64,000 bases of DNA, from contig NZ_JAUQSZ010000002.1 in the NCBI RefSeq assembly GCF_030580995.1, forward strand, positions 124,001-188,000, read 5' to 3'. The position numbers were made by a program, and so were the translations under genes. The DNA comes from Sphingomonas immobilis (GTDB lineage Bacteria > Pseudomonadota > Alphaproteobacteria > Sphingomonadales > Sphingomonadaceae). Each line of letters starts with the position of its first letter. Position 1 is the first letter of the stretch. This document shows, in pieces, positions 5,051 to 34,615 of this stretch. The notes under the pieces are model-generated. The model was not told the origin of the DNA, did not search any database, and saw only the letters and a program-made list of their open reading frames with translations.

Positions 5051-5647
5051 TCAGCCTTCAAGCACACCGCGAACGCGCAGATAGTCGAGCACCGGGAGCA
5101 GCGGCAGGCCGAGCACGGTGAAGTGGCTCCCCTCGATCTTCGCGAACAATTGCACGCCCGGCCCCTCGATCCTGAAACACCCCACGCAGCCGGCGATCGC
5201 GGGCCACTCGGCATCAAGATAGCGATCGATGAAGCTGTAGGACAGCGGGCGTACATGCAGCCGCGCGCGTTCGACATGACGCCAGACCGGCGCGCCGCCA
5301 TGCGCGATCACCGCCGCGCTCCAGATGTCATGGACGCCGCCCGACATCGCTTTCAGATGCGCCGCCGCATCCTCGCGAGAGACCGGCTTGTCGAGGACGG
5401 TGCCGTCAGCGAGCGCGACGAGCGAGTCGCTGCCCAGCACCAGCGCCTCCGGGTCGCGCGACGAACCGCGCACCGCCTTCAGTTCGGCGAGAGCATCGGC
5501 AAGATCGCGCGGAGCGACACCCTGCGCGCGGAAACCCTCCTTGGCCGATTCCTCGTCGACATTCGCCGCAACCGCCTCGAACGGCACCCCGGCGTCGGTC
5601 AGCATCGCCCGGCGCGACGCGCTCTTCGAGGCCAGCACGAACCTCAT
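5051..5647 (-). CDS. maf: Maf family nucleotide pyrophosphatase
   Basis: This 198-residue Maf/YceF/YhdE-type protein is probably a house-cleaning nucleoside triphosphate pyrophosphatase. It starts MRFVLASKSASRRAMLTDAG with the family's Ser-Arg-Arg nucleotide loop, followed by LVLGSDSLVALADG and the KPVSREDAAAHLKAMSG segment. The start at 5647 is fixed by the four-base ATGA overlap with the ppsR stop. Which Maf subfamily (dTTP/UTP or m7GTP type) I cannot decide by eye. Confidence 0.92.
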   Translation of the reverse strand: MRFVLASKSASRRAMLTDAGVPFEAVAANVDEESAKEGFRAQGVAPRDLADALAELKAVRGSSRDPEALVLGSDSLVALADGTVLDKPVSREDAAAHLKAMSGGVHDIWSAAVIAHGGAPVWRHVERARLHVRPLSYSFIDRYLDAEWPAIAGCVGCFRIEGPGVQLFAKIEGSHFTVLGLPLLPVLDYLRVRGVLEG

Positions 5648-6453
5648 GCCTCCAGCCTTTCCGTCACCAGCGCGATGATCGCCGCCGCCGTCTCCTCGAT
5701 CGAGCGCCGCGTCACGTCGATCACCGGCCAGCCGTTGTCGGCGAACATCCGGCGCGCGAACGCGACCTCGCGCGTCACCGATTCCTGATCGACATAGGCG
5801 GTCTCCGGCGCCTGGTTGAGCGAGAGCAGGCGGTTGCGGCGCACTTGGATCAGCCGGTCCGCACTGGTCGTGAGGCCGACGACGAGCGGATGCTTGAGCG
5901 AAAACAGCACCGGCGGCGGCGGACTCTCGACCACGATCGGGATGTTGGCGGTCTTGAAGCCGCGATTGGCGAGATAGATCGAGGTCGGCGTCTTGGACGA
6001 GCGCGACACGCCCGCCAGTACGATATCGGCCTCCTCCCAATCCTCGGAGCCGAGCCCGTCGTCATGCGCGATGGTGAACTGGATCGCCTCGACGCGCGCG
6101 AAATAGGCGGCGTCGAGAACATGCTGCCGCCCGGGCCGCGCCTTCGCCTGCTGCCCGAGCAGCCCCGACAGCGCTCCCGTCACCGCATCGAGCGGCGCGA
6201 TCGCGGGCAGGCCGAGCGCACGGCACCGCGTCTCCAGGTTGCGCCGCGTCTCGCTGTTGACCAGCGTGAACAGCACGAGCCCCGGATTCTGCGCGATTTC
6301 CTGCAGGATGCGCTCGAGATGCCCCTCGGTGCGGATCATCGGCCAGAAGTGGCGGATCGTCTCGACGTCGTCATATTGCGCCAGCGCCGCCTTGGCGATG
6401 TTCTCCAGCGTCTCGCCCGTCGAATCCGACAGCAGATGGAGGTGCAGCCGCAT
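5644..6453 (-). CDS. ppsR: PEP synthase/PPDK regulatory protein (DUF299, RP001-like)
   Basis: This is a 269-residue bifunctional serine/threonine kinase and pyrophosphorylase of the PpsR/RP001 (DUF299) family. It controls pyruvate phosphate dikinase or PEP synthase. The N-terminus is MRLHLHLLSDSTGETLENIA, and the P-loop-like signature GVSRSSKTPTSIYLANRG lies in the middle. I start it at the ATG at 6453, directly at the edge of the probable origin; an upstream ATG would extend it into the DnaA-box region. It heads the leftward operon and is the classical marker gene on one side of the alphaproteobacterial origin. Confidence 0.93.
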   Translation of the reverse strand: MRLHLHLLSDSTGETLENIAKAALAQYDDVETIRHFWPMIRTEGHLERILQEIAQNPGLVLFTLVNSETRRNLETRCRALGLPAIAPLDAVTGALSGLLGQQAKARPGRQHVLDAAYFARVEAIQFTIAHDDGLGSEDWEEADIVLAGVSRSSKTPTSIYLANRGFKTANIPIVVESPPPPVLFSLKHPLVVGLTTSADRLIQVRRNRLLSLNQAPETAYVDQESVTREVAFARRMFADNGWPVIDVTRRSIEETAAAIIALVTERLEA

Positions 6454-6750
6454 TATCGGCACGGGTCTGTGGAAAACATGGGGGCAAGCGCTAGCGCAAC
6501 TCGCACCCCCTCGCAAAGCCGGATGCGCGTGTCGATAACGTCGGACTTGCCCACAATTCCGCGCACATTGCCCGGTTCCGTCAACATCCTGTGGATACCG
6601 GGGACGACGCACCCGACTCCGGGGAATCCCTTAAGGACCGCACGTCAAGCTGTTGGCATTTCCGGGACGGACGCATAAGCCCCGCGATCAACGCGCCAAC
6701 CACTACAACATCCTTTTTAGATTCTTCTTATTAGTAGAAGGGCAGTTCCG
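6454..6750. other. Probable chromosomal replication origin (oriC) between ppsR and hemE
   Basis: This 297-base gap separates divergent ppsR and hemE, the position of the Caulobacter origin. DnaA-box-like 9-mers seen are TGTGGAAAA (6468-6476), TGTCGATAA (6530-6538), TTGCCCACA (6547-6555) and TGTGGATAC (6590-6598). Read on their box strand these are TTTTCCACA, TTATCGACA, TTGCCCACA and GTATCCACA. Four GANTC (CcrM) sites start at 6615, 6624, 6720 and 6750. A T/A-rich stretch at about 6704-6735 next to hemE is a candidate unwinding element. One TTAA half-site occurs near 6630, but no full CtrA box is seen. Position and boxes make the call likely; function is inferred. Confidence 0.8.
6738..6742 (+). 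promoter_or_regulatory. Shine-Dalgarno sequence that decides the hemE start
   Basis: AAGGG within AGAAGGG lies 8 bases before the ATT at 6751 and is the only good Shine-Dalgarno sequence before the conserved hemE N-terminus. No ATG, GTG or TTG follows it at suitable spacing in the hemE frame, which is why an ATT start is proposed. Confidence 0.6.
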
Positions 6751-7788
6751 ATTCCGAGCGAAACCCCCGTTCCTAAGCCGCTCCTGCAGACCCTGCGCGG
6801 CGAGAAGCAGACGACCCCGCCGGTGTGGCTGATGCGTCAGGCCGGGCGCTATCTGCCGGAGTATCGCGCGCTGCGGGCAGAGAAGGGCGGTTTCCTGGCG
6901 CTGGCGACCGATCCCGAAACGGCGGCGGAGGTAACTTTGCAGCCGATACGTCGTTTCGGCTTCGACGGGGCGATCCTGTTCTCCGACATTCTGATGGTGC
7001 CCTGGGCGATGGGGCAGGATCTCAGCTTCGGGGTGGGCGAGGGGCCGCGCCTGGCGCCGGCGCTGGTCGACCATGCCCTGTCCGCGCTGCAGCCCGATCG
7101 CGCGCGTCTGGAGCCGGTCTACCGCACCGTGGAGCGAGTGAAGGCGGCATTGCCCTCAGAGACTACCTTCCTCGGCTTTGCCGGCTCTCCCTGGACGGTA
7201 GCGACCTACATGATCGCCGGGCAAGGCAGCCGCGAGCAGGCCGAGGCCCGCCGCTACGCTTATGCGGACACGCAGGCGATGCAGGCGCTGATCGACGCGA
7301 TCATCGCGTGGACCGTCGACTATCTCGCCGCGCAGGCCGCCGCGGGAGTCGAGGCGGTGCAATTGTTCGACAGCTGGGCCGGTAGTCTTTCCCCGGCGCA
7401 ATTCGAACGCTGGGTGATCGCGCCCAATGCCGCGATCGTCTCCGCCTTGCGTGACCGCTGGCCCGGCCTGCCGGTCATCGGCTTCCCCAAGGGCGCGGGC
7501 GGCAAACTGCCCGCTTACGCCCGCGAGACCGGTGTCGATGCGGTCGGCGTGGACGAGACGGTCGATCCCGTCTGGGCGGCGGCGAGCCTGCCGGAGGGGT
7601 TGCCGGTGCAGGGCAATCTCGATCCGCTCGCGCTGATCGCCGGCGGCGCGGAGCTCGAAGGCGCGGTGTCGCGCATCCTTGCCGCCTTCGCGGATCGCCC
7701 CCATGTCTTCAACCTTGGCCACGGCATTCAGCAGGACACGCCGATCGCGCATGTCGAGCAATTGCTGGCCTTGGTACGGAGCGCCTGA
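6751..7788 (+). CDS. hemE: Uroporphyrinogen decarboxylase, apparently ATT start
   Basis: This cytoplasmic enzyme decarboxylates uroporphyrinogen III to coproporphyrinogen III in haem synthesis. The conserved active-site motif PVWLMRQAGRYLPEYR is present, as are GFAGSPWTVATYMIAG and FNLGHGIQQDTP. The first conventional start in frame is the GTG at 6823, inside the conserved N-terminus (the Val of PVWLMRQ). The frame stays open upstream to a TAG at 6718. The ATT at 6751 has AAGGG 8 bases before it and gives 345 residues starting (M)PSETPVPKPLLQTLRG, close to the usual family length. A CTG at 6784 is the other option. A base error turning ATG into ATT is also possible. The stop overlaps the hemJ start (TGATG). 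Confidence 0.9.
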   Translation: MPSETPVPKPLLQTLRGEKQTTPPVWLMRQAGRYLPEYRALRAEKGGFLALATDPETAAEVTLQPIRRFGFDGAILFSDILMVPWAMGQDLSFGVGEGPRLAPALVDHALSALQPDRARLEPVYRTVERVKAALPSETTFLGFAGSPWTVATYMIAGQGSREQAEARRYAYADTQAMQALIDAIIAWTVDYLAAQAAAGVEAVQLFDSWAGSLSPAQFERWVIAPNAAIVSALRDRWPGLPVIGFPKGAGGKLPAYARETGVDAVGVDETVDPVWAAASLPEGLPVQGNLDPLALIAGGAELEGAVSRILAAFADRPHVFNLGHGIQQDTPIAHVEQLLALVRSA

Positions 7789-13962: not shown

Positions 13963-14579
13963 TCGAGGACGAGGCACGGGCCTGGGTTCACGGCCAATTC
14001 GGTGACGCAGGCGTCGCCAAACTTCAGCAAATCGCGCAAATCGTCATTGCGGAATCCGCTCGCCAAAATCTCATCGCCGCCTCGACGATACCGGAAATCT
14101 GGTCGCGCCATCTCGTCGATTCTGCACAACTCATATTGCTCGCTCGAGATGCGCCGGGCATGTGGTTGGATATCGGCAGCGGTGCCGGCTTTCCCGGTTT
14201 GGTGGTCGCGGCCCTGACCGAACGCAGCGTCCATTTGGTCGAGCCGCGAGCGAAACGCGCCGCCTTTCTTGTCGATGCCGCCGCGGCGCTTGGCATCGGC
14301 AGCCGTGTCGTCGTTCATGCATGCCGTATCGAATCCGTTCGTAATGCGGCTCAGGTCATTTCGGCCCGGGCCGTCGCCGCCTTGCCGACGCTCCTCGACG
14401 CGGCCTTACCCTGTTCCACATCGAACACGCTCTGGCTTCTTCCCAAGGGACAGTCGGCGCATGAAGAGGTGGCAAACGCCGAGCGCGCATGGCATGGTGT
14501 GTTTCACGTGGAACAGAGCATCACCAATCCAGCTTCGCAGATCGTGGTGGCCCGGGGAGTCGCGCGCAGATGCAAGTAA
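13959..14579 (+). CDS. rsmG: 16S rRNA (guanine-N7) methyltransferase RsmG (GidB)
   Basis: This 206-residue SAM-dependent enzyme methylates G527 of 16S rRNA (E. coli numbering). The SAM-binding loop is [16 protein letters not shown], preceded by the family stretch [24 protein letters not shown]. The stop lies ten bases inside parA. Its coding sequence contains a parS site (14500-14515), read as part of GVFHVEQ, so this part of the protein is constrained by centromere sequence as well as by rRNA methylation. Confidence 0.94.
14412..14427. promoter_or_regulatory. Degenerate parS-like sequence inside rsmG
   Basis: TGTTCCACATCGAACA differs from the palindromic parS form TGTTCCACGTGGAACA at two central positions. 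It lies 73 bases before the intact site 2. Central mismatches usually weaken ParB binding, so it may be a decayed site or coincidence. Confidence 0.35.
14500..14515. promoter_or_regulatory. parS: parS centromere site 2 (inside rsmG, 55 bases before parA)
   Basis: TGTTTCACGTGGAACA matches the parS 16-mer with one arm in the T form and the other in the G form, a common variant. It is embedded in the rsmG reading frame close to the parA start, so ParB bound here could also affect parAB transcription. Confidence 0.9.
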
Positions 14580-34599: not shown

Positions 34600-34615
34600 T
34601 TAACGCTTTGTTGAC
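34600..34615 (+). promoter_or_regulatory. CtrA-like box upstream of the Sel1 protein gene
   Basis: TTAA, seven bases, then TTGAC: one mismatch from the alphaproteobacterial CtrA consensus TTAA-N7-TTAA(C). It lies between the panC stop and the ATG at 34670, where a promoter would be. A single near-match may be coincidence. Confidence 0.3.

Follow-up and report, generated by a model that had tools for sequence, protein, structure and literature searches.

The intergenic stretch between the divergent genes ppsR and hemE of Sphingomonas immobilis is very probably the site at which chromosome replication starts, an origin of the alphaproteobacterial hemE/ppsR type. This reading, already proposed in the initial annotation, is supported because the GC skew, a parS-like site with presumed parA and parB genes beside it, the gene order and conserved DnaA boxes all agree. 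The window (the whole stretch of DNA analyzed, 64 kb) lies in contig C14 (438,290 bp) of a 21-contig draft genome. The positions of the identified features are collected in Table 1.

The GC skew, which the initial annotation had named as a check, was analyzed for contig C14 and for two single-contig congeners, and was found to change at or near hemE. In C14 (400 of 438 kb sampled) the best single split of the skew was placed at 128 kb (t 5.9), with the candidate origin at 130.6 kb; the skew averaged −0.051 on the left side of the candidate, while the right side was only weakly positive (+0.006). The congeners were examined in 20 samples of 20 kb per genome. The cumulative sampled skew of G021 reached its minimum in the sample at 1.71–1.73 Mb, with hemE at 1.77 Mb. 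G010 is the weaker case: its minimum fell in the sample at 2.04–2.06 Mb, the next sample being at 2.21–2.23 Mb (hemE at 2.21 Mb), and in the best circular fit the ter breakpoint is separated from ori by only some 0.7 Mb.

The parS-like site of the window is located approximately 8 kb from the candidate origin, and the ORFs that follow it are taken by us to be parA- and parB-like. Two parS-like sites, 5–17 kb from hemE, are present in each of the two congeners. The genome encodes DnaA, both IHF subunits (alpha and beta), a CcrM-like enzyme, GcrA and two CtrA proteins. The dnaA gene sits on a contig other than C14, in line with a passage of a review stating that dnaA near ori is not conserved in Sphingomonadales (PMC8116508).

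The divergent orientation of ppsR and hemE, noted earlier from the open reading frames, was confirmed with family models NF003742 (− strand) and TIGR01464 (+ strand). A ppsR match adjoins hemE in 79 of the 80 named hemE loci compared. The ppsR ORF can be extended upstream to a GTG at 6612, and the conserved protein begins at the ATG at 6453. HemE matched TIGR01464 with 379.3 bits (cut-off 302.95) from residue 11 of the frame opened at 6751, so that the match begins before the first GTG (6823) of this frame is reached. A non-standard start codon of hemE is likely in the window and in some relatives: in the window and three others the only candidate is AT(T/C) followed by CC, 9 nt past AGAAGG, while CTG (often CTGACC) is the only candidate in 16 further regions of the 67 compared. 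In total, 20 of 67 regions contain no ATG, GTG or TTG in the open hemE frame between −105 and −45, and the KPLL-like N-terminus encoded there is still conserved. Besides the window (6736–6823), apparent non-standard hemE starts were noticed in loci L045, L046, L052, L010, L027, L081 and L091. Depending on the start chosen, the intergenic region of the window is about 300–370 bp long, within the 200–1000 bp between hemE and a COG1806/DUF299 gene that is expected of hemE-type origins. No Rfam match was obtained. In locus L049, whose contig is recorded, apparently by mislabelling, as Arthrobacter sp. TPD3018, ppsR adjoins a hemE of the Sphingomonas type (77–78% identity).

Table 1. Features of the candidate origin region of S. 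immobilis, with positions in the 64-kb window.
Feature	Position	Strand	Remarks
ppsR (DUF299/COG1806), left boundary gene	5644–6453	−	NF003742, 320.7 bits (cut-off 225)
DnaA box TTTTCCACA, 1 mismatch; conserved block CTGTGGANAACATG	6468–6476	−	box (≤2 mismatches) here in 51/57
Left block GCTAGCGCAAC	6490–6500	+	GCTAGCGNAAC with ≤1 mismatch in 50/67
GCTAGC, likely ppsR −10	6490–6495	−	fixed −35 spacing
Likely ppsR −35, TTTGCG here (TTGGCN in most relatives)	6512–6517	−	16 bp from GCTAGC
DnaA box TTATCGACA, 1 mismatch	6530–6538	−	box at this place in 36/57
DnaA box TTGCCCACA, 2 mismatches; CCACA core conserved	6547–6555	+	box at this place in 48/57
DnaA box GTATCCACA, 1 mismatch	6590–6598	−	box at this place in 50/57
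GANTC (CcrM target), conserved position	6615–6619		65/67 within aligned 6608–6628
GANTC, second of left hot spot	6624–6628		same offset in 14/57 genomes
Right block GTCAAGCTGTTGGCA	6644–6658	+	single copy in genome; exact in 45/67
TTGGCA, likely hemE −35, inside right block	6653–6658	+	
GCATAAGC, likely hemE −10	6673–6680	+	TAA at same offset in 52/57
CGATCAACG, where other genera have a TCCACAGG box	6685–6693	+	4 mismatches to DnaA consensus (by eye)
Trio-like triplet element CAA CCA CTA CAA CAT CCT	6697–6714	+	triplet-run scan
Putative DNA unwinding element	6710–6739		least stable 30 bp of the 64 kb
GANTC inside unwinding element	6720–6724		zone has GANTC in 61/67
AGAAGG, likely hemE ribosome-binding site	6736–6741	+	sequence
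GANTC at likely hemE start	6750–6754		motif scan
hemE, gene bounding the origin on the right; start probably non-standard (ATT at 6751)	6751–7788	+	TIGR01464
parS-like site TGTTTCACGTGGAACA	14500–14515		only one in genome at ≤2 mismatches

The comparison set was assembled from named hemE loci, the best 80 of 566 relatives (so that the set leans to near relatives), and from 30 whole-genome loci, the window among them, out of 39 genomes with a match. Thinning of 102 sequences at a similarity score of 0.88 left 67 (window included). L001 and L082 were dropped as copies of the window, L105, L106, L109 and L111 (other families) were left out of the genus alignment, and L068, L107, L108 and L110 yielded no ppsR start; L048 was retained in the set of 67 despite its resemblance to another genus (L222). 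Counts out of 57 refer to genomes with at most two mismatches to GTCAANCTGTTGGCA; in L086 the best right-block match falls on the leftmost DnaA box. Two outer groups were used: 36 regions of other Sphingomonadales (35 in the stability scan, one containing N being skipped), and other alphaproteobacteria, represented by 27 of 98 genomes with hemE (the 30 best-scoring loci less G000, G010 and G041).

The four DnaA-box-like 9-mers pointed out earlier within 131 bp are indeed present and span 6468–6598 (scored against the consensus TTATNCACA). The 64 kb contain six sites with at most one mismatch, compared to 7.85 expected from shuffling, and three of the six fall inside the 131 bp, where approximately 0.016 would be expected (P ~7e-7, if the interval is regarded as fixed beforehand). 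Sites of this quality were found in all 67 Sphingomonas 650-bp upstream regions, compared to 8.5 in dinucleotide shuffles. None of the four boxes of the window is perfect; at least one perfect box occurs in 48 of the 67 intergenic regions (window included). Relative to GTCAANCTGTTGGCA, boxes with at most two mismatches recur at three places of the − strand (near −178, −115 and −55) and at two of the + strand (near −99 and −67), the last in 34 of 57 genomes (see Table 1 for the others). The window has four of these five conserved places, with no box of at most two mismatches at −67. The box at 6590–6598 is the right half of an inverted pair, TCCACAGNCTGTGGATAA, whose left half (GTCAACA) is degenerate in the window. 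The spacing of the boxes is 60–63 bp across the compared set, and same-strand boxes of the window are 60–62 bp apart.

Within the T/A-rich stretch next to hemE, also remarked upon in the initial annotation, the 30-mer that begins at 6710 ranks first in instability among the 30-mers of the 64 kb. A least stable 30-mer starting 60–150 nt before the conserved hemE codon was found in 62 of 67 Sphingomonas regions (650 bp), and the same zone holds it in 31/35 other Sphingomonadales and 18/27 other alphaproteobacteria.

All four GANTC sites previously reported between 6615 and 6754 were recovered (6615, 6624, 6720 and 6750). This motif is under-represented in the window as a whole (150 found, compared to 344 expected from dinucleotide shuffles), and GANTC occurs 55–110 nt past the start of the GTCAA block in 61 of 67 regions versus 12.3 in shuffles. 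Its retention at two places (Table 1) fits a methylation role near the origin. The CcrM-like enzyme of the genome has NF050803 as its best model (595 bits, below the cut-off of 830 for that model). GANTC sites are also carried by Cori of Caulobacter crescentus. In several other genera, the stretch equivalent to the triplets contains a GANTC of its own, CAACAGACTCC-like (loci L228, L230, L235, L236, L238, L242 and L244).

From left to right, the conserved blocks are the leftmost DnaA box, GCTAGCGNAAC, more boxes including TCCACAGNCTGTGGATAA, GANTC, GTCAANCTGTTGGCA, GCATAAGCCCCG, the triplets and the AT-rich stretch. The left and right blocks are best read as the core promoters of ppsR and hemE, respectively, because of their fixed, promoter-like spacing and the Caulobacter RpoD consensus, TTGaCgS (TTGNCNS) and GCTANAWC, searched for at distances of 10–19 bp (PMC8144410). 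On the ppsR side, TTGGCN or TTTGCN is separated from GCTAGC by 15 bp in 44 of the 46 genomes with the hexamer (50 examined), by 16 bp in the window and by 25 bp in one genome. On the hemE side, 52 of 57 genomes have a TAA at a single offset downstream of TTGGCA on the + strand. The hexamers are imperfect, and a scan with the E. coli-type sigma-70 consensus found no promoter at the origin. The motif TTGTC(C/G)-N17-TTTATG is present upstream of ppsR on the − strand in 9 of 36 origins of other genera and families, and in none on the + strand.

Exact copies of the right block GTCAANCTGTTGGCA were found in 46 of the 296 genomes searched in the order, compared to 2/296 for a reversed control, and the block is single-copy in all but one of the 46. 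The second copy in that genome (G224, contig C41) has no hemE or ppsR within the 8 kb taken and was treated as a chance match. Of 30 fetched copies, 28 are located 165–189 bp upstream of the conserved hemE codon; no hemE match was found near the other two (L192 and L193, which belong to a different family of the order), and these were likewise ascribed to chance. The gap between the left and right blocks is 154–158 bp in 44 of 47 genomes and 144–145 bp in three, and this near-fixed spacing is kept despite an intergenic length that varies from 333 to 603 in the same set. The three exceptions (L037, L055 and L061) are about one helical turn shorter than the other 44.

The two blocks were at first regarded as sites of an unknown protein, a guess that was demoted once their constant promoter-like spacing had been recognized. 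That neither GCTAGCGNAAC nor GTCAANCTGTTGGCA is a promoter, both being bound by DnaA or by a DNA-bending protein, is nevertheless a possibility to be taken seriously, if a doubtful one. The right block would then belong to the DnaA array as its fourth member, or else be an IHF-like site. The former is retained because its position continues the 60–62 bp series: TGTTGGCAT at 6651 lies 61 bp past the box at 6590. Moreover, some right-block variants are more DnaA-box-like (e.g. CTGTGGACA in L227), and the conservation of the block spans 15 bp, beyond a bare −35. On the other hand, four of the eight fixed bases of the DnaA consensus differ in the block (by eye), and both blocks are paired with a partner at a fixed promoter-like distance. 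As for IHF, whose genes are present, TCAA-N4-TTG in the right block fits the core of the consensus, but the full consensus was found in 0 of 67 regions and the upstream bases are GC-rich and unconserved (by eye), so that the block is kept as an IHF site only within this alternative. A consensus IHF site is one of seven listed criteria for hemE-type origins, not all of which are required according to their authors.

Past the proposed hemE promoter, at the edge of the AT-rich stretch, the window contains six C[ACT][ACT] triplets in a row on the hemE strand. Runs of at least five such triplets were detected in 22/67 Sphingomonas, 5/36 other Sphingomonadales and 10/27 other alphaproteobacteria, compared to 0.6, 0.3 and 0.4 in shuffles, respectively, and in none on the opposite strand or in the upstream control; the pattern was picked after the alignment had been viewed, and 45 of 67 Sphingomonas regions have no run of five. 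Several families elsewhere in the order and class have CTACTACTAC-like triplets after the last DnaA box (TCCACAGG or TTCACAGG), and AT-rich DNA after the triplets (by eye), which is the layout of the basal unwinding system (PMC8287927).

Membership in the published DnaA-trio system is not claimed, because the adjacent box is decayed, middle adenines are mostly missing and the scan performed no better than its control. The window contains no DnaA box of at most two mismatches within 16 bp of the triplets, and no three or more consecutive triplets with a middle adenine on the bound strand. A scan for canonical DnaA-trios (16/67, 22/36 and 13/27 in the three groups, versus 21, 15 and 14 in reverse-complement controls) was uninformative and was set aside in favor of the triplet runs.

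The lack of a middle adenine from most triplets, the base that defines DnaA-trios, together with their position directly downstream of the proposed hemE −10, would suit a part of the hemE leader or promoter better than a single-strand site of DnaA. This explanation is considered rather unlikely, as triplets on the same strand and at the same place beside the AT-rich stretch are found in other orders, where in several they are CTACTACTAC-like and adjoin TCACAGG (alignment by eye).

The initial annotation had also observed that no full CtrA box is visible and had suggested a different control of initiation. The mismatch scan bore out the observation: no TTAA-N7-TTAA with zero or one mismatch is located near the origin, the only one-mismatch matches in the 64 kb being at 34600 and 63230. 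In the hemE upstream regions of the three groups, an exact box was found in 1/67 Sphingomonas (0.1 in shuffles), 1/36 other Sphingomonadales (0.4) and 3/27 other alphaproteobacteria (0.4), and a box with one mismatch in 4/67 (1.1), 9/36 (7.3) and 5/27 (4.6). Thus, CtrA boxes are rare at these origins in general and, since 66/67, 35/36 and 24/27 regions have none, their absence does not single out S. immobilis. The passage of a review concerning S. melonis cuts both ways: the loss of ctrA harmed neither growth nor viability, and an influence of CtrA on replication was demonstrated (PMC8116508). The absence of the box thus holds, and the suggested difference in control is no more than possible.

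Binding of CtrA at a consensus box in this origin is unlikely. Direct control of the origin by CtrA through degenerate or half sites is also quite unlikely, though slightly less so than before the S. melonis passage (PMC8116508), with its influence on replication, was taken into account. Imperfect half sites can be bound (PMC1914354), two CtrA genes of S. immobilis exceed the family cut-off of 350 (418.6 and 412 bits), and sites with at most one mismatch are in slight excess among the 67 regions. Against this stand the single exact site in these regions, the lack of any site with at most one mismatch at the origin of the window, and the unharmed growth of S. melonis without ctrA (PMC8116508). 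The two CtrA paralogs (G000:C7, L253:1976–2677; G000:C15, L254:2285–2980) are identical at 213 of 233 aligned positions.

It is extremely improbable that the ppsR/hemE stretch holds no more than divergent promoters under DnaA regulation and that replication starts at another place, since the skew, parS, gene order and unwinding element all point to this stretch, promoter-like pairs between the two genes notwithstanding.

If the ppsR/hemE stretch is the origin, DnaA-ATP would fill the boxes at 6468–6598, and the complex may then reach over the hemE promoter and settle on the triplet strand (6697–6714), so that the AT-rich stretch (6710–6739) would be opened for helicase loading. The putative divergent core promoters (ppsR, ~6490–6517; hemE, ~6653–6680) would sit within the DnaA array, and transcription from the hemE promoter would traverse the unwinding element. 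Through the GANTC hot spots, methylation by CcrM could mark origins that have just been copied, and CtrA might act indirectly or through weak sites. A more far-reaching proposal, speculative and on balance unlikely, is that the unwinding module was rebuilt in Sphingomonas and near genera. The docking box would have decayed, the triplets would have drifted from 3′-GAT-5′ to a G at every third base, and the hemE promoter block, in helical register with the DnaA array, would have taken over, with opening aided by transcription or by a protein on GTCAANCTGTTGGCA, without a CtrA box.

The place of the origin is unsurprising, because it had been predicted before in Sphingomonadaceae: an oriC on the hemE side is predicted for Sphingopyxis granuli TFA and, in the same passage, stated for most Sphingomonadaceae in DoriC (PMC4741004), and a predicted origin near hemE is also reported for Novosphingobium PP1Y (PMC4059872). 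What is new is the box spacing, the pair of blocks, the GANTC hot spots and the triplet run. No paper with this conserved footprint was found in the literature searched, which mostly excluded subscription journals. The value of the analysis lies in a genus-wide map of the conserved bases at the origin. The map provides exact targets for the study of alphaproteobacterial initiation without consensus CtrA sites at the origin, and bears on whether the embedded hemE promoter is a part of the initiation switch.

The S. immobilis origin resembles that of Sphingopyxis granuli TFA and other Sphingomonadaceae in its place, DnaA boxes and putative unwinding element. The passages on these relatives mention neither a fixed spacing nor a promoter pair, and neither triplets in a run nor hot spots of GANTC (PMC4741004). 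The description of C. crescentus Cori comprises hemE/COG1806 flanks, DnaA boxes and an AT-rich stretch, all of which are shared; however, Cori as described there has five CtrA boxes and one IHF site, whereas the S. immobilis origin has no CtrA box and no consensus IHF site (PMC1914354). The basal unwinding system consists, in the section defining it, of a DnaA box, a spacer and DnaA-trios (PMC8287927). The S. immobilis origin differs from it in that the adjacent box has four mismatches (by eye) and the triplets begin with C on the hemE strand and mostly have no middle adenine on the opposite strand, and is similar to it in having strand-specific triplets beside the unwinding site. The map also bears on whether DnaA can use triplets without a middle adenine, a deviation suspected by the trio authors themselves (PMC8287927).
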